Below are positions 3,153 to 60,444 of a DNA stretch of 64,000 bases, one piece after another. The translations under genes were made by a program, and so were the position numbers. Numbering within the stretch: the first letter of the stretch is position 1; every line of letters starts with the position of its first letter. The stretch comes from Candidatus Melainabacteria bacterium (GTDB lineage: Bacteria; Cyanobacteriota; Vampirovibrionia; LMEP-6097): the NCBI GenBank assembly GCA_005110385.1, contig DUDT01000014.1:186001-250000 (forward strand), read 5' to 3'. A model generated the notes under the pieces. That model was not told the DNA's origin, did no database searches, and worked only from the letters and a program-made list of their open reading frames with translations.

Positions 3153-5783
3153 ATGGTCTCCACAGCGCGCGCACCCACTGTAATAGACCTAATCGCAAGA
3201 GCAGCTTACTCTGATGAGCCACCAGTAGGAATAAAACAAAGCCCTCTCACTTCAGGAAATCCTCTTCCGGATTTTAATAGGTCTCCTTCTAGTCAAAGAC
3301 TGGAGTTACATCAAGTGGAGCAAGCACCGTCATTTGAGGGAACGATAAACTTAATTCGAGAAAAATATGATAGCTTAAAACAACTTATTCAAAGCCCTAT
3401 TTTTAATCAAAGCGAATTCGAACAAATCGAAAAGCAGCTCATTCAAAGCTACAAAACACTTACTAGAGAACACTTAGATAGGTTAAGAGAAGATATTGAT
3501 ATACCAAGGGCACGAGAGAGGCGCCAAGAGGCAAATAACAAGCCTATCCAGCAGTTTAAAAATCAAATCACCATATTAGAAAATATAAATAATTCTCTAA
3601 TTGATAATATTGAAAAACTAGAAAAGAATTTCAGTGATTTAAGCTTAACAGCAGAGGAAACAGAATTTTTAAGAAGAACCTCTCTAGGCAAAGTATTTAA
3701 GCTAGAACCCACTAGCACTGGACTATTTACCGAAATTATCGCTGAGCAAAAGCACCGAGTTTTAAAAAATTTAGCAAAGATATTCTCATCATCTATTTCT
3801 TCAGAAGATGAACGCATGACTAAAATCCTTCAAGAAAAGAGATTTAAAGGTCTCTATCATCAGATACTAGATATTTATGAAAACCATATACCGACCAAAG
3901 GAGAAATACCTAACCCTTTCGAACAAAGAAATTTTAATGATGGCTTAATTGAAAAAGAAATCTATCAATCGAATTATCACGACCTTGACCCTTCTGGAAA
4001 AGCTTCTCTCAATAGACAAATCGATACAAGCACAGATCCAGTAGAAAAGAATAAATTGAATTTAAAAAGAAAAGATTCATTCTACGCTGTAGGCAGGAGA
4101 AAAGCTTTAATTAAAAATCTTAATGCCCTTTATAAAAATGATTTTCGAGAAACAGTAAATATCATAAGATCCTATGTAGAAAACTCTTTTAAAAATGAAT
4201 CCAAGATAAATCATCGAGAATTGATGCCAGATGGTGCTATAGGTCCCCGTGACCTAGCCGTTCTTGGCTTTAGCAATGCTGCGCTCAGAGAAAAACATGT
4301 TCACGCACTGGGTCTTAGATTTACAATCGGTAGTATTAACGAAACACGTGTTTCCATAGCAGCTCAGTTTCTAAATCAACTTCTTGAAACTGGTGGCATA
4401 AAGAATTACTTAACAATAAAAAAGAATCAATACGAACAAATAGGACTAGAAATAGAGAAAGACCTTAACTTCAATACAAACTTTAGCATCGAAAGAATAA
4501 TACACTTTTCGCCACGGGGACCTTTTGATATAAGCGGCTCAGATATAGGCTTCTTAATTAAAGAAAAAAGAAAAGGTCTGCGAACTGGGTCTCAAGAAGA
4601 GAATTCCAAGCCATACAGCTATAAATTCATCAGAATACAAGTTAAAAGCTCAGAGCGAGCAGCAGCTAAGTCAATGGGTAGTAAATATCCAGATATACAC
4701 GCTATCTCAGGCACTCAACACAAATTAAATCCTAAAACAAGAATCCCTTTAGGGGACAGGGTTACCTCACTTTACACAAGTGGAGAAGAGCTAACTTACC
4801 CCAACGTAGAATCTGCGAAACTGACCAGGAGAGCTATTGACCCTGATCTCCCTTTAAAACTTCTCACTGGTATTAATAAAGATAGACAAAGAAATTTTTT
4901 AACCATAGAAGAAGAGCAATATCAAGAACTAGAGAAGCTTTTCAATGATGAGACTCTTTTCAAAAACCAAGGTAAAAATACAGTACCCGTAGATGATACA
5001 GCTGAAATTCAATTAATGAATGCCCTTGCAGCACAAGGCTTCTTATCATCTCTATGCCTAGCCTATCAAAAATACCCCTATACTCTTCAACGGAAATTAA
5101 TTAACGAACTACCCCATCATTTCGCACAAGCTTCTGCACTTAGCAATCAAATACCTATTGAATACTTCAGCTCAGAAGTAAATAAATTAGTAAAAAGTTT
5201 AGCTTCTAGGCTTAACTTGCCAAGCATTACAGTGTCACAGGCATTCAAAAGCGATTTGTTCAACAGCATGAATGAGCAAAAAATTGAGATGAGTTATCTA
5301 AAACCAATACTCTACAAAGCTCTCAGAGAATACCAAGCTAAAGCAAACTGGGCTGAAATAAATTTAGATGAAATCTTAAAACCTTACGCAAACGAAGCAA
5401 GGGAACAGAAAAAGATTCTTGGTCATAGGCTAGGGGGAGTTAAGAAACTACTTAAACTATATTTAAGCAAAATGCTAGAGACTTCAAATCCTCAATTAAC
5501 TCAAACTGATAGACAAAGTGTTTTAAAGATTTTAATAAATAACAAAATCGCCTTTAATCCAGCTTTCTTTCATAGAATCAGTAGTCCAGAAATTAAAACC
5601 AAGGATGATATTCTGCGCTGCCTTGATGAATTTCCTAAAAACTTCAAAACCAAATTTGAAACTGCACCCATAGACCTAAGTAAGGAAAATAAAACCAAAC
5701 AATTAAAATTAAAACTTCGCAATCATCATATTATCCCTTTCCAGCGCATTACTCAAGAATCTTTAAATCCAGCATCCGCCTAA
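3153..5783 (+). CDS. Large hypothetical protein with PD-(D/E)XK-like and terminal HHIIP motifs
   Basis: An 876-residue protein that I cannot assign to a named family. Residues about 60-170 are strongly helical (probable coiled coil). Around 430-500 there is an acidic helix (LEIEKD), then FDISGSDIGF (459-467) and a strand ending IQVKSS (495-500). The spacing D464...Q496-x-K498 matches the PD-(D/E)XK nuclease core with Gln in place of Glu; this is inference by eye. The last 22 residues begin LRNHHIIPF, the usual opening of HNH/colicin-type nuclease domains, but the protein stops soon after, so such a domain would be truncated. It starts 11 bases after typA and overlaps the convergent ligA 3' end by 35 bases. 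No signal peptide. Confidence 0.75.
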   Translation: MVSTARAPTVIDLIARAAYSDEPPVGIKQSPLTSGNPLPDFNRSPSSQRLELHQVEQAPSFEGTINLIREKYDSLKQLIQSPIFNQSEFEQIEKQLIQSYKTLTREHLDRLREDIDIPRARERRQEANNKPIQQFKNQITILENINNSLIDNIEKLEKNFSDLSLTAEETEFLRRTSLGKVFKLEPTSTGLFTEIIAEQKHRVLKNLAKIFSSSISSEDERMTKILQEKRFKGLYHQILDIYENHIPTKGEIPNPFEQRNFNDGLIEKEIYQSNYHDLDPSGKASLNRQIDTSTDPVEKNKLNLKRKDSFYAVGRRKALIKNLNALYKNDFRETVNIIRSYVENSFKNESKINHRELMPDGAIGPRDLAVLGFSNAALREKHVHALGLRFTIGSINETRVSIAAQFLNQLLETGGIKNYLTIKKNQYEQIGLEIEKDLNFNTNFSIERIIHFSPRGPFDISGSDIGFLIKEKRKGLRTGSQEENSKPYSYKFIRIQVKSSERAAAKSMGSKYPDIHAISGTQHKLNPKTRIPLGDRVTSLYTSGEELTYPNVESAKLTRRAIDPDLPLKLLTGINKDRQRNFLTIEEEQYQELEKLFNDETLFKNQGKNTVPVDDTAEIQLMNALAAQGFLSSLCLAYQKYPYTLQRKLINELPHHFAQASALSNQIPIEYFSSEVNKLVKSLASRLNLPSITVSQAFKSDLFNSMNEQKIEMSYLKPILYKALREYQAKANWAEINLDEILKPYANEAREQKKILGHRLGGVKKLLKLYLSKMLETSNPQLTQTDRQSVLKILINNKIAFNPAFFHRISSPEIKTKDDILRCLDEFPKNFKTKFETAPIDLSKENKTKQLKLKLRNHHIIPFQRITQESLNPASA

Positions 5784-7860
5784 ATCCCCCCTCATCTAAA
5801 ACCCTCACGCCAAGTGAATTAGCCTTCTCCAACTTAGAACCAGCTTCATCACCACACAATAAATAAGATGTGCTTTTAGAGACACTTGAACTAGTTTTAC
5901 CACCATTATCCTTAATTAGTTTCTCGAAATAGGATCTACTCTCAGACAGAGTTCCCGTGATAACGAAAGTCATCCCTGAAAATCTATCAGAGAGCTTACG
6001 CTGCGTTACTTCTGTAAAATTAAAACCAAGTTCATAATAGTCTTTTTTTATTTGGGCATAAATCTCAGACTGGAAAAACTGAATTAAAGAAGCTAGAATC
6101 TTCTCCCCAAGACCATCTAGCTTTAAAAGCTCTTGCCCATTATTTACTAAAACTTCATGTTCAAGCTCAGATAAATTAGGAATTAAAGAAGCTATTAATT
6201 GAGCTACATTTAAACCTACATGTTTAATACCTAAAGCGTGAAGGAATCGGTGAAAAGCCTTTCCTCGACTAGCTTGAATCGCTGCAAGTAAATTATTAAC
6301 GGACTTATCAGCCATTCTTTCTAAATCTATTAATTGCTCATATCTCAGCCTATAAAGGTCTAGCGGATTAGAAATTAATTTTACTTCTAACAGCTGCTCT
6401 ATAATAGAAGGCCCTAGACCAGAGATATCTAGAGCGTTTCTAGAAACCCAATGTTCAATACGCCTCTGTATCTGAGCAGCACAGCCCACTATATTAGGAC
6501 ATCTTAACGCGACATCCTCCTGTTCCAAGACACTGTCACAGATAGGGCATTTACTAGGCTTCTGTATTTGGCTGCGAATTTCATTTTCTAAAAAAGACCG
6601 CTGCACAACTCCATTTTCTGCGTTCACATCATCTCTAATTACAGAAACTATCTCTGGGATTATCTCACCAGCCTTACGTACAGAAACCTTATCTCCAAGC
6701 CCAACTCCGAGCCTAGCTATCTGATCAAAGTTATGCAAAGTTGCACGCTTCACAGTAGTACCTGCTAAAAGTACTGGCTCTAAATTAGCTACTGGAGTGA
6801 TTATGCCAGTACGGCCAACTTCATAATCCACTGAAATCACTTTAGTTATAGCCTCTTCAGCTGTAAACTTTAAAGCCATTGCCCAACGTGGGAACTTACT
6901 AGTCACCCCAAGTGTTTTCTGCAAGTGAGTTTCATTAATTTTAACGACAGCTCCATCTATCTCTAGATCTAAGCTGTCTTTCTTCTCTTGCCATTCATGG
7001 TATAAATTAATCACCTCTTCAATACTAGTACAGAGATGATTACCCCCTTTATTTACATGAAAGCCCCAATCCTCAAGCTGCTTTAATGCATGCCAGTGCG
7101 TGAACACCTTATCATCAGAGTCAGCAGTGGAATTCTCAGATACCTCAGCACCTGTATCCTTGGCTAAATGTAAACCATAACAAATAATATCTAAATTTCT
7201 CTCAGCTGTAATTTTAGGGTCAAGCTGCCTAAGTGCTCCAGAAGCCGTATTGCGAGGATTTGCGTAAAGATCTAATCCTTGATTAGCCCTAGCTTCATTT
7301 ACCTTTATAAATTCAGCTTTAGGTAGGTAAACTTCTCCACGAACAGTAAAGTCACCCAAACCTTGAACATCTTTAGGCAAAGACTTTATAGTAAAAATAT
7401 TAGGGGTAACATCTTCACCTACTCTTCCATCACCACGAGTAGCCGCCCTGTATAAGTTACCATTCTTATAATCTATCGTTATACTCAAACCATCTATCTT
7501 CAGCTCAAATACATAAGTCCTTACTGTTTCAGCCCCTATTATTCGATTAATTCTTTCTTCCCAAGCACGTATATCCTGCTCCCCAAAAGCATTAGCAAGG
7601 CTCATCATCGGAATTGCATGTGCAATTTTATTAAAAGATGTTTTATATACTCCCGTTCCTACAGTCTGCGTAATACTGTCAGCTTCCATTAAATCTGGAT
7701 AAGCAGCCTCTAAAGCTATCAGCTCTTGTAAATGAGCATCATAAACAGCATCAGCAACTTCGCTATTATTTTCTATATAATACTGATGGCTCCAATGTTT
7801 GAGCTTGATTTGAAGATCTTGGTATTTAGCCTCAGCTTCCTTGTATGTTTCTTTGAGCAC
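5749..7860 (-). CDS. ligA: NAD-dependent DNA ligase LigA
   Basis: Seals nicks in duplex DNA using NAD+ during replication and repair. At 703 aa it is slightly longer than the usual 660-680. The order is an Ia domain, an adenylation domain with the nucleophile in ELKIDG (K121), an OB fold, a four-Cys zinc finger (CPIC near residue 437, then C..C near 454-460), helix-hairpin-helix repeats and a C-terminal BRCT domain (GMTFVITGTLSESR). The start is GTG at 7860. Residues about 407-421 (DVNAENGVVQRS) form an insertion between the OB fold and zinc finger that matches the dispersed repeat described below. It is last in the thyX-antiporter-atpB-permease-ligA run, 9 bases after the permease. Confidence 0.96.
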   Translation of the reverse strand: MLKETYKEAEAKYQDLQIKLKHWSHQYYIENNSEVADAVYDAHLQELIALEAAYPDLMEADSITQTVGTGVYKTSFNKIAHAIPMMSLANAFGEQDIRAWEERINRIIGAETVRTYVFELKIDGLSITIDYKNGNLYRAATRGDGRVGEDVTPNIFTIKSLPKDVQGLGDFTVRGEVYLPKAEFIKVNEARANQGLDLYANPRNTASGALRQLDPKITAERNLDIICYGLHLAKDTGAEVSENSTADSDDKVFTHWHALKQLEDWGFHVNKGGNHLCTSIEEVINLYHEWQEKKDSLDLEIDGAVVKINETHLQKTLGVTSKFPRWAMALKFTAEEAITKVISVDYEVGRTGIITPVANLEPVLLAGTTVKRATLHNFDQIARLGVGLGDKVSVRKAGEIIPEIVSVIRDDVNAENGVVQRSFLENEIRSQIQKPSKCPICDSVLEQEDVALRCPNIVGCAAQIQRRIEHWVSRNALDISGLGPSIIEQLLEVKLISNPLDLYRLRYEQLIDLERMADKSVNNLLAAIQASRGKAFHRFLHALGIKHVGLNVAQLIASLIPNLSELEHEVLVNNGQELLKLDGLGEKILASLIQFFQSEIYAQIKKDYYELGFNFTEVTQRKLSDRFSGMTFVITGTLSESRSYFEKLIKDNGGKTSSSVSKSTSYLLCGDEAGSKLEKANSLGVRVLDEGGFRRMLDLKILE
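6596..6640 (-). repeat. In-frame half-copy of palindromic repeat inside ligA
   Basis: On the minus strand the 3' part reads gcagaaaatggagttgtgc followed by agcggtc, matching the 36348-36392 copy (gcagaaattggagttgtgc, agcggtctc) with few changes. It encodes NAENGVVQRS in the LigA frame, between conserved blocks of the enzyme. Confidence 0.75.
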
Positions 7861-7869
7861 AAGAAAATA

Positions 7870-8937
7870 TTATAGCCATAAGTCAGTTAAGACCGAAAGC
7901 AAAGCAATAACCACAACAGAAATAACTGTCAAGTAAATAGCCACCTTTAAGCCAAATGCCTGCTTATAAACAAAAACCGTAGTTAAATTCACCGATGGAC
8001 TAGCCGTCATAAAAGCAAGCACAGCTCCTATAGGCACTCCCATATTTAAAAATTCTTGGCTCATAGGAATATCGGCTCCTGCACAAAAATAAAAAGGAAA
8101 TGCTATAAGTGAGAAAATCCAAGGTGCCAAATATTTATTAGTTAGCACAGCTTGGAAAGCAGTCAGGGATTCATAATTAAAATGAAGCAAGCTTGCAAGA
8201 GCTACAGACAAAAGTACCCACGGTAAAAACTGTTTTATCGCAGCGATAAGATCCTCTCTTATATGTGCCAAAACTTCATTAGTCCCTAATTTATGCTGAT
8301 GATCTTCATCATTATGCTCATGCACAGCAGCGTGATTTTCATTATCATGATGATGATCTTCGCCACTATGCTCATGCACAGCAGCGTGATTATCATTTCC
8401 ATGATGATGATCAGCTTCGCAACAAGATTCCTTAGATGATCCACCTGGAGCTAATTTCAACGCAATAAAATCTGCAATTTTCGCTTCTCCAGAGAAGATA
8501 AAAACATAGGTAACTAAAACAGCAAAAGCTATCGCCATTAATAAACGATAAGCCGTAATCTCTAAACCAAAAATTCCATAATTAAGGATTAAAGCTGGGA
8601 CACTACAAGCATTTCCAGCAAGAAGAAAAGCTAAAATTATTTTCCAGTCAAGCTGCTTACGATACAGTCCTAGAGCAAGTGGAATCATCCCACAGGTACA
8701 AATAGGAATTAATGCACCAAGAAAAGCTGAAACTAATATCATCAAAAAAAGACGTAATTGATAGCTTAAGAACTCTGAAAATTTCCAGGAAGGATTAACT
8801 CTAGCTAAAGCCACTAATCCTATTTTTTCAAAATAACCATCTGGTAAATAAACTTCTATTAAAGATGAGCAAATAACCGCAATGAAAAATACAGGTAGTA
8901 TTTCAAATAGTATATGGCTAAAATGCTCTATAAACAC
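7870..8937 (-). CDS. Permease of the ArsP_1/DUF318 type with a His-rich loop (probable metal efflux)
   Basis: A 355-residue membrane protein with about eight hydrophobic segments. The segment PICTCGMIP, near residue 80, is the CxCG signature of the DUF318 permease family, which includes arsenic- and Cu/Zn-efflux members. Between the two membrane halves lies a cytoplasmic loop (about residues 175-215) with a Cys and two near-identical His-rich units (HHH..N.NHAAVHEH), a likely metal sensor or buffer. Family knowledge and the loop suggest Cu/Zn-type export; the substrate is inferred. It begins 3 bases after atpB and is followed 9 bases later by ligA. Confidence 0.75.
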   Translation of the reverse strand: MFIEHFSHILFEILPVFFIAVICSSLIEVYLPDGYFEKIGLVALARVNPSWKFSEFLSYQLRLFLMILVSAFLGALIPICTCGMIPLALGLYRKQLDWKIILAFLLAGNACSVPALILNYGIFGLEITAYRLLMAIAFAVLVTYVFIFSGEAKIADFIALKLAPGGSSKESCCEADHHHGNDNHAAVHEHSGEDHHHDNENHAAVHEHNDEDHQHKLGTNEVLAHIREDLIAAIKQFLPWVLLSVALASLLHFNYESLTAFQAVLTNKYLAPWIFSLIAFPFYFCAGADIPMSQEFLNMGVPIGAVLAFMTASPSVNLTTVFVYKQAFGLKVAIYLTVISVVVIALLSVLTDLWL

Positions 8938-9773: not shown

Positions 9774-10805
9774 TCAGAATAAGATTATAGCAACTAGATA
9801 CAGTAAATATAAAAAGCCAAGAAAAGTAAGTGTCGCAGCATGAACACGCTTAAATACTTTCAAAGAAAGCAGAAGAATAAAAGCTGAAAGTAAAGCTAAA
9901 ACAAAACAAAACATAGTATGTGAATCCAAATTCCAGGGAGTCAAACTTACACCTACTGCACAAGGAATAGCCGACTGAAAAACCATAGCTCCAGTGATAT
10001 TTCCCATCGCAAGTCCATCTTTACCAGAACTTGCCCAGAACCAACTATTCACTTTTTCAGGAAGCTCGGTCGCTATAGGGGCAATAATTAAACTTAAAAC
10101 AAGTGGACTTACATTCATCATCACCGAAGCTTCCTCTATAGAAATAATAAACCTATGAGCGAAATAAATAATCCCGAGTAATGAAAGTAAAACCTGAGCA
10201 ATCATCCAGAATAAATTTGAGGGTAAACGGAAACCAGCTACCGCAACACTAGATATATAAAGTGCATCAACCCCCTCTGCATCCTCCTCAGTGTGATTAT
10301 GATCAGACCCCTCTCTTAAAGTAGTCACAAAATATGTCACGTAAATTCCTAGAAGTATTACCGTAAAAACTATTTTAGATATAGCATCCGGGAAAAGGGT
10401 AGCGAACATAGCTACGGAGAGAGCCACTATAAAATATGTCAGATCTTTACTAACATGGCCATGAGCTGCTCTTAAATTCAAGTCTTGTCTTTTTTTATAA
10501 TTTACTAATATCGCTAAACCTAAAAGAGCCATAGCTAAGGTAGATAAGAGAAAAGGTGCACCAACAATAGATCCTATCGCGATATCAGTCTTCGGATCCC
10601 CATGGGCAGACCCTGCTAAAAATATAGCGATAATAGGTAAAAGAGTTTCCGGCAAAGCCGTTCCTATAGCCGCGAGTAAACTTCCAACAACTTGTTCACC
10701 TAATTTCAGGCGTACTCCAATATTTTCTACTGCATTCGTAAACCAGAGGCAGACAAATAAAATAGCTGCAAGCAGCAGAATAATTTTTCCAATAACAATG
10801 ATCAT
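9774..10805 (-). CDS. CaCA-family sodium/calcium (cation) antiporter
   Basis: A 343-residue inner-membrane antiporter with about ten hydrophobic segments in two inverted halves. Each half has the alpha-repeat signature: AIGTALPETLLP in the first and APIATELPEKVN...GNITGAMVFQS in the second. This is the Ca2+/H+ or Na+/Ca2+ exchanger superfamily. A hydrophilic, acidic/His loop (DHNHTEEDAEG) separates the halves. It begins 2 bases after thyX and is followed by atpB after 47 bases. The transported ion cannot be fixed from sequence. Confidence 0.85.
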   Translation of the reverse strand: MIIVIGKIILLLAAILFVCLWFTNAVENIGVRLKLGEQVVGSLLAAIGTALPETLLPIIAIFLAGSAHGDPKTDIAIGSIVGAPFLLSTLAMALLGLAILVNYKKRQDLNLRAAHGHVSKDLTYFIVALSVAMFATLFPDAISKIVFTVILLGIYVTYFVTTLREGSDHNHTEEDAEGVDALYISSVAVAGFRLPSNLFWMIAQVLLSLLGIIYFAHRFIISIEEASVMMNVSPLVLSLIIAPIATELPEKVNSWFWASSGKDGLAMGNITGAMVFQSAIPCAVGVSLTPWNLDSHTMFCFVLALLSAFILLLSLKVFKRVHAATLTFLGFLYLLYLVAIILF

Positions 10806-24081: not shown

Positions 24082-24146
24082 AGTCCCTAATTTAATTTAA
24101 AAAAATGGCGGAGACGAAGATCTGTAAAAGCGCCAGCTTTTACAAT
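24082..24146 (+). repeat. 65-bp direct repeat, copy 1, carrying the tRNA-Asp 3' end
   Basis: Identical over 65 bases to 24307-24371. It contains TGGCGGAGACGAAG, the (complement) 3' end of the nearby tRNA-Asp including CCA, and a perfect hairpin TGTAAAAGC-GCCA-GCTTTTACA. It is followed by a diverged T-arm-like piece (GGTTCAAGTCCC) in inverted orientation. Confidence 0.9.
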
Positions 24147-24191
24147 ATAAAAAATCAACCCCAGGTTCAAGTCCCTTCGTCGACGCTAATT

Positions 24192-24312
24192 GGGACTGCT
24201 CGCAATCTTCAATTTCTGCGTTTTCGTCGTCCTCATGATCCTCATGTACCTTTAGTACACTGCGGTCATTCGTCCTCCTCAGCCTTGAACTTGTGCGTTT
24301 GTGAGCAGTCCC
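24192..24312 (-). repeat. Full-length 121-bp palindromic element, copy B
   Basis: Bounded by inverted repeats gggactgctcgcaa (24192-24205) and ttgtgagcagtccc (24299-24312), 13 of 14 paired. Read on the minus strand, its right half (49 bases) carries the core gaaaacgcagaaattg shared with all other copies. An internal stem TGTAC/GTACA lies near the middle. taatt flanks both sides, a possible 5-bp target duplication. It sits between the two 65-bp tRNA-derived repeats. Confidence 0.85.
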
Positions 24313-24371
24313 TAATTTAATTTAAAAAAATGGCGGAGACGAAGATCTGTAAAAGCGCCAGCTTTTACAAT
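24307..24371 (+). repeat. 65-bp direct repeat, copy 2, carrying the tRNA-Asp 3' end
   Basis: An exact duplicate of 24082-24146, followed at 24389-24400 by GGTTCAAGTCCC and at 24405-24410 by GTCGAC. A third, shorter match (20 bases) is the real tRNA 3' end at 24427-24446. Confidence 0.9.
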
Positions 24372-24431
24372 GAAAAAGGCAACCCTAGGGTTCAAGTCCC
24401 GTAGTCGACATTATTTTAATTTATTAAAAAA

Positions 24432-24508
24432 TGGCGGAGACGAAGGGACTTGAACCCTCGACCCCCTGCGTGACAGACAGGTGCTCTAACCAACTGAGCT
24501 ACGCCTCC
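24432..24508 (-). tRNA. tRNA-Asp (GTC)
   Basis: 77 nt including the encoded CCA (plus-strand tgg at 24432-24434). The acceptor stem GGAGGCG pairs with CGTCTCC (one G-T), the D arm has GCTC/GAGC, the anticodon stem CCTGT/GCAGG has loop CTGTCAC with anticodon GTC, and the T arm contains GGTTCAAGTCC. The discriminator base is G, as expected for Asp. Pieces of its 3' end are repeated downstream at 24105-24118 and 24331-24344. Confidence 0.95.
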
Positions 24509-35979: not shown

Positions 35980-36351
35980 ATGTTCAAGTACGATACAGAG
36001 AATCTTCCACGCATTACCTTTAAAGGAAAGAGGCTTACTGAAAAGCAAATCGCAGTTCTAGAGTTTTTAGCACAGGGGCAGACGAATACAGAAATAGCCG
36101 AAAATCTTTTCCTCTCTGTAAGAACCGTAGAATCGCACATCTCTAGAATTAGAGGAATTATCAGTGAGCATATGCCACAGTCACAGAGAATAAGTGATAG
36201 GCAACTCGTTTTATTCGCTAAAGATCTAATTGATGGCTTTAAAATTTTCGACATACTGAAAAGCGGCATGAATGAAGGCTTTGAGCTATCAGAATTTAAA
36301 ACTTATCAAAAAACAGTAAGCCTGAATAATGATAGATATTATATTCAATGA
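35980..36351 (+). CDS. Small LuxR-type DNA-binding regulator
   Basis: 123 aa. Residues about 18-65 are a LuxR/GerE helix-turn-helix (LTEKQIAVLEFLAQGQTNTEIAENLFLSVRTVESHI, described in parts: LTEKQ, NTEIAENL, VRTVESHI). There is no receiver or ligand domain, so it is a stand-alone regulator. A clear AGGAG lies 10 bases before the ATG. The gene ends inside a copy of the palindromic repeat: one extra A in CAATGAG creates the TGA. Without it the frame would run through the element (HEAGENAEIGVVQRS) to a TAG at 36404-36406. Confidence 0.85.
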   Translation: MFKYDTENLPRITFKGKRLTEKQIAVLEFLAQGQTNTEIAENLFLSVRTVESHISRIRGIISEHMPQSQRISDRQLVLFAKDLIDGFKIFDILKSGMNEGFELSEFKTYQKTVSLNNDRYYIQ

Positions 36352-36392
36352 GGCGGGCGAAAACGCAGAAATTGGAGTTGTGCAGCGGTCTC
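36348..36392 (+). repeat. Half-copy of palindromic repeat at the 3' end of the LuxR-type gene
   Basis: Reads atgaggcgggcgaaaacgca then gaaattggagttgtgcagcg and gtctc. Its core is identical to that of 36470-36510, but the outer end (gtgcagcggtctc) matches the ligA and wecB copies. It encodes ENAEIGVVQRS in a frame one base off the LuxR frame. Confidence 0.85.
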
Positions 36393-36396
36393 TTTT

Positions 36397-36518
36397 GGGC
36401 GTGTAGCCAAACGAACAAGTTCAAGGTCTGAGGAGGATGAATGACCGCAATGTATCAAGCATACATGAGGATCATGAGGCGGGCGAAAACGCAGAAATTG
36501 GAGTTTCGCTACACGCCC
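36397..36518 (+). repeat. Full-length 122-bp palindromic element, copy A
   Basis: Ends are inverted repeats gggcgtgtagccaaac (36397-36412) and gtttcgctacacgccc (36503-36518), 15 of 16 paired. Internal stem TGTAT/ATACA. The interior is about 80% identical to copy B at 24192-24312, whose ends have a different sequence. It lies 4 bases after the half-copy at 36348 and stops 3 bases from the argS stop codon. Confidence 0.9.
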
Positions 36519-36521
36519 CTG

Positions 36522-38417
36522 TTACATTTTCTCTGGTGCAGAAATGGCAAGTATACTAAGAGCATTTTTTATAACTATCTTAGAAGCTGCCACCAGAGAT
36601 AGCCTAGCCTTCATAACCTCTTCGTTTTCACCTATAATACGATTTTCATTATAGAACTGATGAAATAAGCTAGCTAAATTCTTTAAGTAGACTGAGATTT
36701 TATAAGGTGCCCTGATATCAGCAGCATCAATAACAAGCTTAGGTAATTCAATCAATTCTAAAACTAAGCTTCTGATAGTTTTCAACTGCTCTTCACTATG
36801 ATATTCATCAGAAAAGAGTTTCTTGAAATTTGCAGAAAATGTTTTAAACTCTTCATTTAATAAACGTTCCAGCTCATCTACTTCAAAAATAGCAGCTTCT
36901 TCCGTATTATCAACTATATTGATACGAGGGCTTACTAAATTACGAAATATACTTGCCGAGCGGGCATGTGCATACTGTATGTAGTAAACTGGATTATCTT
37001 TATCATGTTTTTGCGCTAAAGCTAAATCAAAAACCATGCGATTATTGGCTTGGCTATCCACGAGAAAGAATCTCAGAGCATCTTTACCGACTTCAGCTAA
37101 AAGCTCATCAACGTTAACTATAGTGCCTTTGCGCTTAGACATTTTTTTCTCAACGCCATCTTCTTTAACGGAAACCAATTGAATAAAAATCAACTCTAAC
37201 TGATCTGAATTATAGCCAATAGCGTGAATCGCCCCCCTGATACCAAGCTCTTGTCCGTGATGATCACTGCCCCAAACATTAATTAACTTATCAAAGCCTC
37301 TGTCAAATTTATCTTTATGATAAGCGATATCACCAGCTAAATAAGTGAACATGCCTTGAGATTTCCTAAGGACTCTATCTCGCTCATCACCAAAGGATTT
37401 CGCTCTAAACCATAGAGCCGAGTCTTCTTCATACACAGCAGAGACCTCATGGGCGTGCAGCGGAACTCCAATTTCTGCGTTTTCGCCCGCCTCATGATCC
37501 TCCGTCACATCTTCTTGCTTTACTTTTGCTGCTTTAAGTGTTTCACAGATTAACTCAATTTTATTTTTATCATTAATTTTTACTTGATGTAGATTCTCGT
37601 TCTCCGAGTACCACGTATCGAAATGAACTTCTATGTCAGCTAAAACTTTCTTCTGTAAATCAAGAAAAAGACTTTTCGCTAATTTACCAGCTATTTCTTT
37701 TGCTTGATCACCAGCAAGGGAAGCCGCATCCAAATAGCCTTCTAGCTTAGATTTATAAATCTCCGGCTTTAAAACATCTAGCATAGAATCCAGTGGATAA
37801 GCATCCACTGGATAATTTTCCTTAGTGATGTGACCCTCTTGAATTTGAATTGCAGCTTGAGCAGAGAGTGAAAGCTTTTCTATCTGCACACCAGCATCAT
37901 TAATATAAAATTCACTAGATACATCGTAACCAGCCCAGTCAAGTAATCTTGCAAGAGAATTACCCAGAACTGCTTGCCTGCCATGACCTAAATGTAGATT
38001 ACCAGTAGGGTTCGCTGAAACATACTCTATAAGAAAGCGATGCGGCTCCATATTAGCCCGAGCTTCTTTAGATAAACGACCATAATTATCTTTCTCTTGA
38101 TGAATCTCTATCAGAGCAGATTCCAGAAAATCCCAATTCAAACGAATATTAATAAATCCAGGACCCGCGATAGATATATCACCAATGGCAACTACATCCA
38201 AATGCTTAACTATACTTTGAGCTATCTTTACTGGTGGTAGTTTCGCCTCACGAGACAATTTGAGGGCTATACTTACGGCGATATCGCCATGATCAGGGTT
38301 TTTACATCTCTCCACATCTATATAATCAGAAAAACTTTTCAGCTCACCTAAGTCAGATGCCGCAATAGCTTTATTTATAGCTATTTGGAATAAATTACGA
38401 ATCTTGCTGCTTAACAT
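36522..38417 (-). CDS. argS: Arginyl-tRNA synthetase
   Basis: Class I synthetase charging tRNA-Arg. 631 aa, longer than the usual 550-590. HIGH-like HLGH occurs in NPTGNLHLGHGRQAV, the KMSKR-like motif in KKMSKRKGT, and the C-terminus ends LAISAPEKM. Part of the extra length is an insertion at residues 307-322 (DHEAGENAEIGVPLHA) encoded by a copy of the palindromic repeat, placed in the loop before the conserved DSALWFRAKSFGD block. A full repeat copy abuts its 3' end. The 5' end overlaps the upstream 38395-39585 gene by 23 bases. Confidence 0.95.
   Translation of the reverse strand: MLSSKIRNLFQIAINKAIAASDLGELKSFSDYIDVERCKNPDHGDIAVSIALKLSREAKLPPVKIAQSIVKHLDVVAIGDISIAGPGFINIRLNWDFLESALIEIHQEKDNYGRLSKEARANMEPHRFLIEYVSANPTGNLHLGHGRQAVLGNSLARLLDWAGYDVSSEFYINDAGVQIEKLSLSAQAAIQIQEGHITKENYPVDAYPLDSMLDVLKPEIYKSKLEGYLDAASLAGDQAKEIAGKLAKSLFLDLQKKVLADIEVHFDTWYSENENLHQVKINDKNKIELICETLKAAKVKQEDVTEDHEAGENAEIGVPLHAHEVSAVYEEDSALWFRAKSFGDERDRVLRKSQGMFTYLAGDIAYHKDKFDRGFDKLINVWGSDHHGQELGIRGAIHAIGYNSDQLELIFIQLVSVKEDGVEKKMSKRKGTIVNVDELLAEVGKDALRFFLVDSQANNRMVFDLALAQKHDKDNPVYYIQYAHARSASIFRNLVSPRINIVDNTEEAAIFEVDELERLLNEEFKTFSANFKKLFSDEYHSEEQLKTIRSLVLELIELPKLVIDAADIRAPYKISVYLKNLASLFHQFYNENRIIGENEEVMKARLSLVAASKIVIKNALSILAISAPEKM
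37451..37499 (-). repeat. In-frame half-copy of palindromic repeat inside argS
   Basis: The minus strand reads gatcatgaggcgggcgaaaa, cgcagaaattggagttccgc, tgcacgccc: 49 bases differing from 36470-36518 at two positions. It starts exactly on an ArgS codon and encodes DHEAGENAEIGVPLHA. Confidence 0.92.
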
Positions 38418-42308: not shown

Positions 42309-43520
42309 TTAGAGTTTTTTTATTAAGGCAAAGATATCTCTGCTGCTTTCAGGTCTTGCAAATCGATACAAATTTTTCTTCATCGCCGATATTTTCTCAG
42401 GGTTCTTAGCTAAGTCTAAAAGCAAATCAGCAATCTCCTTTTGCGGAGAGTATCGCGGAATTCCATTTTCTGCATTTTCACCACCAGAAAAATTATCTTG
42501 CCGAATCATAAAACCGCAATCCGCCTTAACTAAAGCCTCTGCATTTTTAGTCTGATGATCATGAGCAGCCCAAGGTAAAGGAATTAGTATCGGTACTATA
42601 AGCGACACTGCCATTTCAGCACAAGTCATAGCACCAGACCTACAAATAGCGACGTCAATAGTTTTAGAAATATTCGCCATTTCATGGGTATAACTTAAAA
42701 CCTTATAATTAGAATATTTCTGAGGATCACCATTTAAATATTTATTTACGTGTTCATTAAAAAGCTTAGAGCCGGTAATGTGCGTAATAGATATTTCTTT
42801 GCCTTCAATCGCAAGTCTTTTATTAAAATCCTCAAAATCTTTAAGTAAAATGCCTATACTATCATTAACGAACTGGGAACCCTGACTACCACCAGTTACT
42901 AAGACCCTCAAATGATTTTCATCACGGGGTTCACGCTTGGCAGCAGCCCCATAAGCGGCTTCCCTATAAATATTAATAAAGTCCTGCGAAACTGGATTAC
43001 CCGTGTAACGATATTTATCATTAAAACTTATATTTATCGGAAAGCCTAAGCTCACACAACTCGCAAATATTCTAAATAATTTGTTTACTAAACCAAAATT
43101 ACTATCAAGATTATGAATTAAGAATTTAGTTTTTGTTGTTACGCAGGCAAGAAATACTGGCGCTGCCACATAGCCACCAGTACCCATAACTACGTCGATT
43201 TTATTCTCTCTTAGATAATTCACTGAGCATTTATAAGCTTTAAAAAAAATGCTAAACCATTCTAGATTTTCTTTCAAAGAATTATTTCGAGAAGGAAGCT
43301 TAGGGGAATTAATCGGGAGAAACTTAATATATTCTTTACGCACACACAATTCCTGCTCAAGTTTTCCTTCACCACCGATATAATATAAAGCATTTTTTTC
43401 AGCTCCGAGGGACTGCTCGCAATCTTCAAATAACTCAGCAACAGCAAGGCAAGGATAAATATGTCCCCCAGTGCCTCCTCCCGTAAATGCAACTCGCACA
43501 GCAATTTCCTTTATCGACAT
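42309..43520 (-). CDS. murG: UDP-GlcNAc--undecaprenyl-pyrophosphoryl-MurNAc-pentapeptide transferase MurG
   Basis: Adds GlcNAc to lipid I, giving lipid II at the inner membrane. 403 aa against the usual 355-370. The diagnostic loops are FTGGGTGGHIYP, VMGTGGYV, VTGGSQGSQFVND and the C-terminal CRSGAMTCAEM...PWAAHDHQTKNAE. The additional length includes two pieces that match the palindromic repeat: EDCEQSL (residues 31-37) and GGENAENGIPR (about 346-356). ATG start at 43520. It converges with the gene ending at 42285. Confidence 0.95.
   Translation of the reverse strand: MSIKEIAVRVAFTGGGTGGHIYPCLAVAELFEDCEQSLGAEKNALYYIGGEGKLEQELCVRKEYIKFLPINSPKLPSRNNSLKENLEWFSIFFKAYKCSVNYLRENKIDVVMGTGGYVAAPVFLACVTTKTKFLIHNLDSNFGLVNKLFRIFASCVSLGFPINISFNDKYRYTGNPVSQDFINIYREAAYGAAAKREPRDENHLRVLVTGGSQGSQFVNDSIGILLKDFEDFNKRLAIEGKEISITHITGSKLFNEHVNKYLNGDPQKYSNYKVLSYTHEMANISKTIDVAICRSGAMTCAEMAVSLIVPILIPLPWAAHDHQTKNAEALVKADCGFMIRQDNFSGGENAENGIPRYSPQKEIADLLLDLAKNPEKISAMKKNLYRFARPESSRDIFALIKKL
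42455..42485 (-). repeat. Diverged in-frame half-copy of palindromic repeat inside murG
   Basis: The minus strand reads ggtggtgaaaatgcagaaaa then tggaattccgc, aligned with the argS copy core (gcgggcgaaaacgcagaaat, tggagttccgc). Same reading frame, peptide GGENAENGIP. Confidence 0.65.
43409..43429 (-). repeat. Outer arm of palindromic repeat (copy-B type) inside murG
   Basis: 21 bases (gggactgctcgcaatcttca plus a on the plus strand) are identical to the outer end of the full copy at 24192-24212. It encodes EDCEQSL near the MurG N-terminus, in the loop after the first Rossmann helix. Confidence 0.8.
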
Positions 43521-51418: not shown

Positions 51419-52800
51419 TTAATTGGGGCAGTTTTAATGATTTTAATTATCTTCTTTGCCGCATCCCCATTCCCATAGAGGGACTTTTTACCCTTTTCAA
51501 TTTCTGTTTGACTATTATTAAGTAAAGATTTAGTCATTAACTGAGAGATAAGACTCTTAATCGCAAATTTAATACTTTTGGAATCAGGACTTAGTCTCTC
51601 ACTTAGACCCTGTTCTAAATATTCCTCTCTCTCTGCCTCCTCTCGCATAACAAGAGTATATTTATTTAGATAAGCCGCCTCTTCTTGGACGCCGCCACTA
51701 TCAGTAATTATAAAGAATGCATTCTGCATTAACTGTATAAACTCCCAGTAAGTCACCGATTCCAGCAAACAAAGACCTGAAATATTCATAGATAATAGCT
51801 TTTCAGATAATTTTAAAAAATTTTCTTTTGCATGCGGGTTATTATGCAGGCATATAGTAAATTCTATAGTTTCTTCGCAGTGTTTGGGAAACTTAGTTTC
51901 TGGTTTTTTAAGATTCTCCCTACTTTGTTCTTGAAGAATCTGAAAGATACTTTCACAGAGTGTTGCTTGAAATCCACTGCTGATGTTTTCTCGTCTATGA
52001 CTAGTAATTAGAATATACTTTTTCGCATCTAGCCTAGGTTCATTTCTGGAGCTCTTTTCAACAATAGTAGAATTACCAAGCTTTAAATTCTTATTATCAA
52101 TTATGCTGTGAGCTTTAAAAAGAGCATCTATGCCAGTGTTTCCAGTGTTAAATATATTGTTAGCAATAGCAAATTCCTTTAAATCTAGCGAAAGTTTAAG
52201 ATTAGGATGATCAATATTCAATTGTGATATAGCTATATTCTTTAAAATCATTTTCTCCTGAATAAGCCTTCTGTAAACCTTCTCACTGGGGCAGAAATGA
52301 TAGTCAGCTATCTGACTAATAACACGCCTAGAGAGTTCTTCGGGAAATGGGCTTTTTGGGTTAACCGTTCTTAGACCAGCTTCTACATGAGCTACCCTAA
52401 TATGATTATAAAAGGCTGCTAAAGCAGCCTGCACAGCACTTAAAGTATCTCCCTGCACTATAACTAAATCTGGTTTTTCTCTGCGAAAGAGCAGATCTGC
52501 CTCAGTAAGGAGCTTTGCTGCAAGCTCCGCTAAGCTAAGTCCTTGATTTACTAGGCTAAATTCATAATCTGGCTGTATATCCCAAAATTCCAAAAGATCA
52601 CTGAGAATGAGTTTATTGTGTTGATTGGTGTGTACCCACTTAATCTCAGGGATTGCTTTAGGAGACCGCTGCACCACTCCATTTCCTGCATTTCCCTCGC
52701 CTTCATTTTCTACGAGTTTACTTAAGCTTTGGAATTCCAAATATACGGGTGCTAGTTTTATATATTCAGGTCTAGTACCGACTATAATAAAAATTTTCAT
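51415..52800 (-). CDS. wecB: UDP-N-acetylglucosamine 2-epimerase (non-hydrolysing)
   Basis: Makes UDP-ManNAc from UDP-GlcNAc for surface polysaccharides. 461 aa versus the usual 360-380. Core motifs are VGTRPEYIKLAPV, QGDTLSA, VEAGLRT, SHRRENI and DSGGVQEEA. Extra length comes from an insertion at residues about 25-50, which includes EGNAGNGVVQRS encoded by a palindromic-repeat copy, and from loops near 220-290. The AGGAG ribosome site lies 5 bases before the ATG. Divergent from the ABC ATPase with overlapping -10 boxes. Confidence 0.9.
   Translation of the reverse strand: MKIFIIVGTRPEYIKLAPVYLEFQSLSKLVENEGEGNAGNGVVQRSPKAIPEIKWVHTNQHNKLILSDLLEFWDIQPDYEFSLVNQGLSLAELAAKLLTEADLLFRREKPDLVIVQGDTLSAVQAALAAFYNHIRVAHVEAGLRTVNPKSPFPEELSRRVISQIADYHFCPSEKVYRRLIQEKMILKNIAISQLNIDHPNLKLSLDLKEFAIANNIFNTGNTGIDALFKAHSIIDNKNLKLGNSTIVEKSSRNEPRLDAKKYILITSHRRENISSGFQATLCESIFQILQEQSRENLKKPETKFPKHCEETIEFTICLHNNPHAKENFLKLSEKLLSMNISGLCLLESVTYWEFIQLMQNAFFIITDSGGVQEEAAYLNKYTLVMREEAEREEYLEQGLSERLSPDSKSIKFAIKSLISQLMTKSLLNNSQTEIEKGKKSLYGNGDAAKKIIKIIKTAPIK
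52662..52709 (-). repeat. In-frame half-copy of palindromic repeat inside wecB
   Basis: The minus strand reads gaaggcgagggaaatgcagg then aaatggagtggtgcagcggt and ctc, matching the 36348-36392 copy including its outer end gtgcagcggtctc. It encodes EGEGNAGNGVVQRS. Confidence 0.8.
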
Positions 52801-52831: not shown

Positions 52832-53974
52832 GTGGTTCAAGTTTCTTTAAATAAAATATCTAAAAAATATGATGAGAATTACATCATCAAAGATATCAGC
52901 CTAGAATCTCAAGATAAAGAATTTATAGTTTTAGTAGGACCTAGTGGTAGCGGTAAGAGTACGATTATTAGAATAATCGCAGGCTTAGAAGGTGATTTTG
53001 AAGGTGAATTAAAATTCGCTGGTGAAACGGTAAAGGACTTAGCAGCGAAAGATCGTAACCTCAGCATGGTTTTCCAGAATTATGCGCTTTATCCCCATAA
53101 AACAGTTTTTGAGAATATCGCCTTCCCTTTAGTAATTAAATCTGAGCCTAAAAATCTAATTAAAGAAAAAGTACATAAAGTAGCCGGGAAGCTTGATTTG
53201 ATGAAATATCTAGAACGCAAGCCTGGGCAGCTTTCTGGCGGGCAGAAGCAGAGGGTCGCTGTGGCTAGAGCTTTAATTAAAGAACCGCAGCTTTTTTTAA
53301 TGGATGAACCCTTAAGTAATCTTGATGCGAAGTTAAGAACCTCTACTAGACAGGAAATACGCAAGCTCTATCAGGAATTAAACAGTACTTTTATTTATGT
53401 AACTCATGATCAAATCGAGGCTATGAGCCTTGGCGATAGAATCGCCATATTACATGAAGGTAAGATACAGCAGTTTGATACTCCATCCAAGATATATCAT
53501 GAGCCCGCAAATACTTTTGTTGCGAGCTTTATCGGCTCCCCCCCGACTAATTTATTTGAACCAAACTCAACTCTATTTCAAGCTTTAAAAGAGGAACTGA
53601 TCCCTAAACTCAATCGCGAAGATTTAATCATCGGCATTCGCCCAGAATATTTTTATTTAACCGCAGAAAATTTAGATCATGAGGACAACGAAAACGCAGA
53701 AATTGGAGTTCCGCTACACACCCTTGAGGCAGAATTAGTTAATATTGAGAACCTAGGTGAAGAGATTCTAGTTTATGCAAAGCTAGATGAAAATTCAGGC
53801 AAGCTAAATGGTAGCGAATACTTGATAGCTAAAATTGATAATGCAGAGTATATTAAATTACTTAATGGCAAATGCAGCGCCTTAAGTCCTGAAAACCCAG
53901 TAAAATTACAATTATTCTTTGATCCTAAAATGATTTACCTTTTTGATAAGCGATCTAGTATGCGAATCAGTTAG
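52832..53974 (+). CDS. ABC transporter ATP-binding protein, MalK/UgpC type
   Basis: 380 aa. Walker A GPSGSGKST (about residue 35), the Q-loop MVFQNYALYPH, signature LSGGQKQRVAVARAL, Walker B LFLMDEPLSNLDAKLR and a C-terminal TOBE/OB regulatory domain. Such ATPases power carbohydrate or glycerol-phosphate importers and can serve several permeases. No permease or binding protein is nearby. Residues 282-297 (DHEDNENAEIGVPLHT), in the TOBE region, come from a palindromic-repeat copy. GTG start. The next gene follows after 12 bases. Confidence 0.92.
   Translation: MVQVSLNKISKKYDENYIIKDISLESQDKEFIVLVGPSGSGKSTIIRIIAGLEGDFEGELKFAGETVKDLAAKDRNLSMVFQNYALYPHKTVFENIAFPLVIKSEPKNLIKEKVHKVAGKLDLMKYLERKPGQLSGGQKQRVAVARALIKEPQLFLMDEPLSNLDAKLRTSTRQEIRKLYQELNSTFIYVTHDQIEAMSLGDRIAILHEGKIQQFDTPSKIYHEPANTFVASFIGSPPTNLFEPNSTLFQALKEELIPKLNREDLIIGIRPEYFYLTAENLDHEDNENAEIGVPLHTLEAELVNIENLGEEILVYAKLDENSGKLNGSEYLIAKIDNAEYIKLLNGKCSALSPENPVKLQLFFDPKMIYLFDKRSSMRIS
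53675..53723 (+). repeat. In-frame half-copy of palindromic repeat inside the ABC ATPase gene
   Basis: gatcatgaggacaacgaaaa, cgcagaaattggagttccgc, tacacaccc: 49 bases, about 90% identical to the argS copy. It starts exactly on a codon and encodes DHEDNENAEIGVPLHT. Confidence 0.92.
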
Positions 53975-58793: not shown

Positions 58794-58841
58794 GGGCGTG
58801 TAGAGAAACTCCAATTTCTGCGTTTTCATCGTCCTAATGAC
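58794..58841 (-). repeat. Half-copy of palindromic repeat forming the 3' end of the O-antigen-ligase gene
   Basis: The minus strand reads cgtcattaggacgatgaaaa, cgcagaaattggagtttctc, tacacgccc. The outer end is the copy-A type. In the host reading frame CAT-GAG of other copies has become CAT-TAG, which is the stop codon of the upstream gene. Confidence 0.85.
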
Positions 58842-60444
58842 GCTTCTGTATAATCTCCACATAAGGCAATGGTAAGTATAATTTCTCCCCACTACGATAA
58901 AAAGCCTTAATTCTCGAATCACCCGATTTCCCGCCTATAACTTTGTACGATGGTAGTGAGGGATCGCTTAAAAAAGTCTCTAGATGAGGGTCTATCTTTA
59001 AAGCTTTTATATAATGTGCTTTGGCTTTCTTAGAGTCTTGGTTCTGATAAATTAAAGAACTAATTAAAAACCAGTAAGCATCATTACCAGTGTATTTTAA
59101 GGCAAAATCTACAGATTCCCTTGCTTCTTTTAAATGCATATTACTTAATTGTGCGGCAGCCAACGCACCTCGAATATAAGGCACTGCTGGAGCTAACTCT
59201 ACAGCTTTTAGTAAATCCTGTTCACTATTTAGTAAATCTGATTCTATGGTTTTTACACCACGCATAAGAAAATATAGAGGATGCTTAGTATCTATATTTA
59301 TTGCTTTATCTAAATCGCCTTGGTCGTAATAATAATGCCCCACAGCACTTGGTACTAAAATTATTAAACTTAAAAATAAAAAACTTATCTGGGCTGGTTT
59401 TCGTAAATAAAAAGGTAATTTTTTAAAAATACTTTCAAAAAACATATTATCAGATTTAGGTAAATAACACAGGGGCATTATGATTAGCCCCATAAGCAGA
59501 AATTGATTAAATGACTGTAAGTTGCTATCAGCAGCACCAATCAAAGCTAGGCAGGGTAAGGCTTGCGGTGCTTTAACTGCTACTAGATAAAATAGAGCTG
59601 TTACTAATATTAAACCTACTAAGCCAAGCTCAAAAGCATAGTGGATAAAAAGATTGTGCCCGTGATTTACTTGCTCATTAGCATGAGCGCCTAAGACTTT
59701 TTCCAAATGACGATATACAGGAAAATCTAAAACAAAAGTTCCGAAACCATGACCGAATAAAGGTTTTTTCAAAAAACCATGGAAAGCTCCCTCCCAGATT
59801 AATATACGTGGTTGAATAGATTTTTCAATAAAGTGAATTAACTTTTCTTTAAATACGAAACTTAACCCAACTAAAATAAAAGCTAAAATATAAATCAACC
59901 TAGAACGCAAATATACTCTAAAGCTCAATACCTGAGCTAAAAAAGTTATTTTTTTATTTAAAAAGAAAAGCATGATAAGAAAACTTAAGTAAATAAAAGT
60001 ACCTAAGCGCACGCCCAAAAATTTTCTTTTCAACTTAGGTACCAGACTATCATCATCTCTAAGGTAAATAACGAGGAATACAGGTACCCACATCAGTAAG
60101 CTTCCAAGCTCTGAAAGTGAGAATTTGAAAAAATCACAGATACTTAAAGCGATAAAAACTACTAATAATATTCTGAAACGCTTTCTCGTATCTAAATCTA
60201 ACCAAAATTTAGATGCACCAAAAATTAAACAAGCAGAGGAGATTAATAAATACTCTAAGCTCAATCTAGAATTAGCTGCAAATAAGTAAGTAATTAATAA
60301 TAAAAACCAGATTAGATAATATTGAGAAATTTTAGAAACTTGAATAAGTGTAAAAATACAAGTTAAGGCATGCGTGAACCAGATACTCATCGCAATTGGT
60401 GAACCGATAACAAAAATCAATAAAAAGATTCCTAAACTCAGCAT
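58834..60444 (-). CDS. O-antigen ligase/polymerase-like membrane protein with TPR tail
   Basis: 536 aa. About 10-12 membrane helices cover residues 1-380. The Wzy_C/WaaL motif is visible in the periplasmic loop: WEGAFHGFLKKPLFGHGFG followed by VNHGHNLFIHYAFELG (the conserved HN and G). The last 150 residues are TPR-like helices (YWFLISSLIYQNQDSKKAKAHYIKALKIDP). Such proteins join or polymerise surface glycans, which fits wecB and murG nearby. It starts 3 bases after the 60448-61116 gene. The stop codon lies inside a repeat copy. Confidence 0.82.
   Translation of the reverse strand: MLSLGIFLLIFVIGSPIAMSIWFTHALTCIFTLIQVSKISQYYLIWFLLLITYLFAANSRLSLEYLLISSACLIFGASKFWLDLDTRKRFRILLVVFIALSICDFFKFSLSELGSLLMWVPVFLVIYLRDDDSLVPKLKRKFLGVRLGTFIYLSFLIMLFFLNKKITFLAQVLSFRVYLRSRLIYILAFILVGLSFVFKEKLIHFIEKSIQPRILIWEGAFHGFLKKPLFGHGFGTFVLDFPVYRHLEKVLGAHANEQVNHGHNLFIHYAFELGLVGLILVTALFYLVAVKAPQALPCLALIGAADSNLQSFNQFLLMGLIIMPLCYLPKSDNMFFESIFKKLPFYLRKPAQISFLFLSLIILVPSAVGHYYYDQGDLDKAINIDTKHPLYFLMRGVKTIESDLLNSEQDLLKAVELAPAVPYIRGALAAAQLSNMHLKEARESVDFALKYTGNDAYWFLISSLIYQNQDSKKAKAHYIKALKIDPHLETFLSDPSLPSYKVIGGKSGDSRIKAFYRSGEKLYLPLPYVEIIQKRH

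Follow-up and report, generated by a model that had tools for sequence, protein, structure and literature searches.

Two genes in the genome of an uncultured, non-photosynthetic relative of cyanobacteria, a member of a Caenarcaniphilales genus, share a stretch of almost the same DNA within their open reading frames. One is argS, which encodes arginyl-tRNA synthetase (36522–38417, minus strand; NCBIfam TIGR00456, E 4e-106), and the other encodes a UgpC/MalK-like ABC transporter ATP-binding protein (52832–53974, plus strand; Pfam PF00005; its best NCBIfam model, NF008653, scores under the cut-off of that model). How did one sequence enter both genes without breaking them, and did it arrive recently, as an earlier note had concluded from the high identity of the two copies? 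All positions refer to the window, by which we mean the whole 64,000-nucleotide stretch analysed, bases 186001–250000 of the 351-kb contig C14. We read C14 in full and compared its genome (G000, a 1.91-Mb draft, 88.5% complete) with other genomes, all of them draft MAGs, among which G001 and G002 belong to the same genus and G006 to another.

Results

The two stretches, 37451–37499 on the minus strand and 53675–53723 on the plus strand, are identical at 43 of 49 positions (87.8%); the encoded peptides are DHEAGENAEIGVPLHA (argS) and DHEDNENAEIGVPLHT (ABC ATPase). As the earlier note had held, the host proteins are unrelated, with no common Pfam family at the place of the insert. The similarity did not arise by chance, since a 20-base core (ARAAYGCAGAAAWTGGAGTT) occurs at 270 places in G000 when up to three mismatches are allowed, versus a single place for the reversed control (54 versus one on C14 alone). 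Each of the two is one copy of a dispersed element whose actual unit extends beyond the 49 bases first reported.

The complete unit measures 121 bp. Arms of 16 nt form its two ends; the left one is followed by 4 nt, and then comes a conserved core bearing an apical hairpin of about five variable nt. Searching G000, G001, G002 and G006 yielded 98 distinct complete copies; the uniform length of 121 came from selecting one spacing, and the independent figure is the identical spacing seen in 82 of these 98. Arms fall into several types (GGGCGTGTAGC, GGGACTGCTC, GGnACTGyTGC and GAGACCGCTGC), with left and right arm matching within each copy. Left halves were found 66 times in G000 (control, none) against 270 cores, so most copies of this genome are shortened. 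The argS and ABC stretches comprise the right-hand part only, with a constant right end and a ragged left end.

Complete elements within the window lie at 24192–24312 (minus strand; covariance model R1, E 1.1e-35; flanks AATTA/AATTA) and 36397–36518 (plus strand, 122 nt; E 7.6e-32; flanks CTTTT/CTGTT), the latter between the convergent genes 35980–36351 and argS. A shortened copy at 36344–36391 (plus strand) directly precedes it as part of a dimer and overlaps the end of gene 35980–36351. Inside genes, shortened copies are found in argS (37451–37508, minus strand; ArgRS residues 307–322 correspond to DHEAGENAEIGVPLHA), in the ABC ATPase gene (53675–53723, plus strand, starting at residue 282), in ligA (6594–6626), in a wecB-like epimerase gene (52662–52694) and in murG (42446–42478), the last three on the minus strand. 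Another (58794–58826, minus strand; R1 E 9e-6; 33 of 34 bases) lies just past the stop codon of gene 58834–60444. Scored over 34 bases against the nearest complete copy, with arm type allowed for, the argS and ABC copies match at 33 bases each, compared to 31 in ligA, 30 in wecB and 28 in murG. That is, the pair is indeed less decayed, as had been proposed, but the stronger decay of ligA and wecB is partly only apparent and reflects a different arm type (GTTGTGCAGCGGTCT).

Several further features were seen in or near these copies. In thirteen complete copies (for example near 48017 on contig C2 of G002 and at 263396 on C14), the hairpin loop contains an additional palindromic module of about 70–84 nt, which is perhaps a nested element. 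Complete copies such as that at 36397–36518 have GAGGAGG in the core, four bases before ATGACC, and in two genomes an ORF apparently starts from the element in that ATGACC frame; the core might supply a ribosome-binding site. The complete element at 24192–24312 is flanked by a 110-nt direct repeat (86%; 24082–24191 and 24307–24416), with a tRNA-Asp gene beside it (24432–24508). Elsewhere in the window, a 54-nt tandem duplication at 8293–8400 encodes a His-rich loop in a permease-like protein.

We then analysed base pairing of the arms. Among the 98 complete copies, unselected, at least 12 of the 16 arm positions paired in 84, while seven paired at 9–11 positions (nine in three copies, ten in three, eleven in one) and seven at five or fewer. 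In an alignment (A1) of 41 of the 48 copies picked one per distinct left arm, the arms were 93.9% paired, a flattering value because several of the seven copies left out (L081, L006, L025, L067, L130, L151 and L182) have poorly pairing arms. Both sides had changed in 14 of the 16 arm pairs of A1, which none of 500 shuffles matched. RNAalifold proposed additional pairs in the core. A wider alignment of 27 copies (A2), including the genus of G006, gave 37 pairs with 97.2% of cells paired and double changes in 30 pairs; covariation was 0.655, compared to 0.185 for shuffled alignments and no more than 0.104 for slid ones, with A2 having been fitted to the arm and hairpin pairs and 15 core pairs lying outside that model. 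In the predicted fold, lone Watson–Crick pairs recur every three bases of the core, with 5'-GA-3'/3'-AG-5' mismatches between them. At the four GA/GA sites, the mismatch is retained by 38, 36, 35 and 39 of the 41 copies of A1 and by 15, 21, 19 and 24 of the 27 copies of the wider set. For the relics in argS and the ABC gene, predicted folding did not exceed that of shuffled sequence (z −0.28 and +1.96). Five G000 loci compared with Rfam at a relaxed threshold gave unrelated weak matches only. The idea of a hammerhead-like or other known ribozyme, suggested by the CTGAGGAGGACGAA core, was dropped for want of an Rfam match.

Insertion left a distinct footprint. Of 41 solo copies whose arms pair, 26 have 5-bp flanks that agree at four or five of five bases (3.2 copies expected by shuffling), and moving the frame of comparison by 1–4 bases left only 0–2 agreeing copies. 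That is, the element is bordered by a target-site duplication of fixed 5-bp length, as expected of a MITE. Together with the 121-bp unit, an insertion therefore adds 126 bp, or 42 codons. Tandem copies are spaced 126 bp apart, and one G000 gene contains two units more than in G001 (252 bp).

The reading frame is almost invariant. We counted copies separated from either end of a dominant ORF by 15 codons or more, and 150 of 154 distinct copies in such long ORFs are on the sense strand in the single frame (D)ENAEIGV. On C14, where gene calls were home-made, 31 of the 54 copies are inside genes, all 31 in sense orientation and in this frame; the counts for the remainder of G000 (20/21), G001 (69/71) and G002 (30/31) come from loci chosen for high similarity, with orthologous copies recurring between genomes. 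Three of the four exceptions use another sense frame and one is antisense; two orthologous exceptions look like N-terminal extensions. In-frame insertions affect unrelated conserved genes, namely argS, the ABC ATPase gene, ligA, murG, wecB and trmD. The single sense frame is accounted for by a frame-safe length and later in-frame shortening. Stop codons do not fully explain why placement is sense-only: among 82 complete copies the sense frame is open in 69 and an antisense frame in 59, and the short part of the element is for the most part free of stops in five of the six frames.

The other 23 of the 54 C14 copies are noncoding and located at gene 3' ends, 18 of them on the strand of the upstream gene. 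Examples from the window are found at 36360, 36486 and 58807. Fourteen noncoding C14 copies face an opposite-strand downstream gene. Two of these are the first members of dimers; in nine of the other 12, the core lies 12–17 nt from the end of the opposite-strand gene, such that the right arm ends at the stop codon.

Comparison with related genomes revealed the history of individual sites. At the argS site, 58 bases stand in place of seven in G001 (net 51 bp, 17 codons) and the same insert is present in G002; the empty site of G001 may represent a loss there. The ABC site is filled in G001 as well, where it is 93 bp longer, in frame and open, comprising the remnant plus a complete unit. Since the same site is filled, and longer, in G001, the ABC insertion predates the split of G000 and G001. 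TrmD shows the reverse of ABC: G000 has the complete copy, and that of G001 is shorter by 81 bp. Shortening has hence taken place in both lineages. The murG copy is the same in G002 and present in a diverged version in G001, and at wecB 69 bp are absent from G001. Scoring a core anywhere in the matched stretch as present, we found it in 24 and missed it in six of the 30 C14 copies (of 54) with an examined G001 counterpart, and found it in 16 of 16 with an examined G002 counterpart. For the complete element at 36397–36518, the hairpin loop is common to all three genomes, and both arms differ together in G001.

These data bear on the inference of recent spread from high identity, which fails. 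The ABC copy is old enough to occupy the same site in G001, in longer form, whereas that genome lacks the wecB copy, which has decayed further, and the argS and ABC copies are both 5'-shortened relics, not fresh insertions. Presence and absence, which the earlier note had proposed to compare among strains of the species, gave a divided picture within the genus, with the argS insert found in G002 and missing from G001 and the ABC site filled in G001. Distant orthologues, whose possession of the same insertion would, according to the earlier note, have refuted its reading, lack them: 12 of 12 argS orthologues outside the genus are without it, and none of 11 ABC orthologues outside the genus has one. 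A longer stretch in the ABC orthologue of G006 was considered as an element remnant and rejected, as its score was no better than that of shuffles.

Constraint on the inserted segment is relaxed. In nine orthologous pairs, the inserted 45 nt have a pN/pS of 0.65 versus 0.09 in the flanks. In the AlphaFold model of ArgRS (mean pLDDT 89.6), the only stretch below 50 is residues 305–320, the insert; in that of the ABC ATPase (mean pLDDT 86.8), it is residues 282–291, again the insert. Given this ratio and the lone low-confidence stretch in each model, the inserts look tolerated, not needed. Judged from these lowest-confidence loops of the predicted structures, they appear to occupy an exposed, tolerant part of the protein, as is the case for Rickettsia palindromic elements (RPEs).

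Beyond the host genus, covariance model R1 was run against 382 genomes of the class and, at E 0.01, matched 16. These comprise every one of the nine from the host's family, two of family f8 (G015 and G025) with clear matches, and five further genomes with single weak ones. A pattern scan of named genomes gave at least 73 stretches and, among the matches listed, 70 stem from two MAGs, 'Cyanobacteria bacterium REEB446' and 'Candidatus Caenarcaniphilales bacterium RE-15aug16-7'. The other listed matches (L129, L180 and L188) contain no element according to the covariance model. One copy of G006 is in frame in a GTPase-like ORF, one copy of G007 is in the same frame, and G008 has one copy in an antisense ORF. 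At the RNase P RNA gene of G006 (RF00010, L227 1574–2051), copies were observed at 1482–1601 and 1711–1833, one of them inside the gene. The plasmid and phage collections searched contained no match to the element. In an IMG/VR contig (L271), the element occurs at 3612–3652 and 10183–10279, in HsdR-like and SNF2-like ORFs; this contig, which carries restriction and helicase genes, probably represents a defence island of a chromosome rather than a virus. Our searches of open-licence papers turned up no account of such an element in this lineage.

We also looked for a mobiliser. No active transposase tied to the element was found. The lone DDE_Tnp_1 relic of G000 (L280, 1185–2336) is IS1182-like and bounded by GGCACTGTTGC and GAGACTGTTGCC, and L289 and L290 of G001 end in the same IS1182-like element with the terminus GCAACAGTGCC and different flanks. 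The terminus GGCACTGTTGC is identical to the opening 11 bases of one class of arms; the GGnACTGyTGC arm class accounts for 20 of the 98 complete copies. Most arms differ from the IS1182-like ends (33 of 98 are of the GGGCGTGTAGC type, and there are others), the internal sequence of this transposon is unrelated to the element, and its G000 copy is interrupted and has no clear 5-bp repeat. An ISAs1-type DDE_Tnp_1 element of G001 was rejected as a source because its ends are unrelated (AGGGCTGTCTC). To look for autonomous versions, in which the hairpin loop would hold a gene, we examined 99 left halves; six had no right half within 260 nt, and no recognisable gene was enclosed.

Discussion

We interpret the argS and ABC stretches as relics of a non-autonomous, MITE-like palindromic element, RPE-like in kind, that spread through this Caenarcaniphilales genus, and put the probability of this reading at about 0.85. 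An incoming copy would duplicate 5 bp of its target and lengthen it by 42 codons; where it enters in the open sense phase, the protein would gain a hydrophilic, acidic and probably unstructured segment. Genes stay unbroken because the length added is always a multiple of three and can be read through in one frame. Later in-frame deletions of the left part would leave relics of 15–17 codons, of which the argS and ABC ATPase copies are examples. The element may move by DNA transposition in trans, its recognition would depend partly on hairpin shape, and the host protein would tolerate the insert rather than benefit from it. The IS1182-like transposase is the best lead for the enzyme acting in trans, a tentative candidate put forward on the likeness of its terminus to one arm class, and the odds are somewhat against it. 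A fuller scheme, which unites recognition by hairpin shape, joint rewriting of both arms with the core kept, transcript-tied entry in sense orientation only, and a protein-safe combination of length, duplication and frame, seems to us rather unlikely.

Other explanations account for part of these data. Plain segmental duplication or chance likeness of two genes draws on the pair's own similarity and nothing more; set against 270 copies versus one in the control, defined ends and direct repeats, its probability is negligible. A single-strand HuH/Y1 transposase of the REP type could move the element via its hairpin, as in REPINs or IS200/IS605. Such enzymes occur in G004 and G006, and since arm sequence varies and pairing is kept, the shape of the hairpin may matter. 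No Y1 transposase was found in any of the three genomes of the genus, G000, G001 and G002 (drafts 54–93% complete), and the element has a 5-bp target duplication, which is not expected from single-strand HuH/Y1 chemistry; we regard this route as improbable.

Two further alternatives concern the inserted peptide. It could be a selected motif, a useful binding or targeting tag spread by gene conversion, which would fit the one frame, the one orientation and the similar acidic peptide across unrelated proteins. Its pN/pS relative to the flanks argues otherwise, as do the noncoding position of 23 of the 54 C14 copies and of the two at the RNase P RNA gene of G006, arm covariation that follows base pairs, not amino acids, and a peptide that matches no Pfam or NCBIfam family, so that we give this idea very little credence. 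Or the insert might never reach the mature product, being taken out of the RNA or passed over during translation (by a splicing-like process or ribosome bypassing) to yield a protein without the element. The conserved, covarying hairpin would suit such a process, as would the sense-only placement, both within genes and in 18 of 23 copies at gene 3' ends, though the antisense frame is usually open. Yet a removed segment need not keep the frame that 150 of 154 copies share, and the argS and ABC relics are in frame despite having lost the left arm and hairpin, and show no folding beyond that of shuffles; removal of this kind is highly improbable.

If the palindromic element is what we propose, coding palindromes compatible with the reading frame, of which those of Rickettsia and Wolbachia are the best known, have arisen or been retained in a distant phylum. 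With intact copies, target duplications, sites lacking the element and nested deletions all represented among three related genomes, entry into, and erosion within, essential proteins can be followed directly, and the sense-only frame together with the jointly changing paired arms renders the mechanism testable. Annotation of these genomes should treat additional acidic loops of conserved proteins as inserts, not domains.

NCBIfam includes RPE models. When the 40-aa consensus peptide was compared with the family models of NCBIfam and Pfam at E values up to 1, no family matched, so that the peptide showed no similarity to a described family such as RPE1-8, and no Rfam family matches the element at the G000 and G006 loci.

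RPEs and the coding palindromes of Wolbachia and Methanocaldococcus measure about 105–150 bp, have terminal inverted repeats, and occur in intergenic regions as well as in frame within conserved genes; RPEs are reported in RNA genes, too (PMC2229807, PMC10969869, PMC3767692). Our element resembles RPEs as a dispersed repeat of 121 bp with 16-nt inverted arms, in-frame genic copies and a copy in the RNase P RNA gene of G006, but its host belongs to a different phylum. The target duplication of RPEs is entered as '?' in a review table (PMC2229807), compared to 5 bp here, and the accessible parts of the three reports describe neither a covarying tandem-G·A hairpin nor a strict sense-only frame for RPEs (PMC2229807, PMC10969869, PMC3767692). 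ERIC, NEMIS/Correia, RU-2/YPAL and RU-3 MITEs are likewise small, non-autonomous and hairpin-forming and sometimes give in-frame gene fusions; ORF-bearing MITEs are described as mainly intergenic, whereas 31 of 54 C14 copies are genic (PMC2229807, PMC2759123). PARCELs are also palindromic DNA that is translated, but they are tandem repeats in membrane proteins of unassigned function, in contrast to the single inserts in housekeeping proteins found here (PMC2996958). Coding palindromes are thus already known as a kind, and by sequence comparison the present family appears to stand apart from those in Rfam, Pfam and NCBIfam. What distinguishes this element is its 5-bp duplication, its covarying tandem-G·A hairpin and its single, sense-only reading frame.
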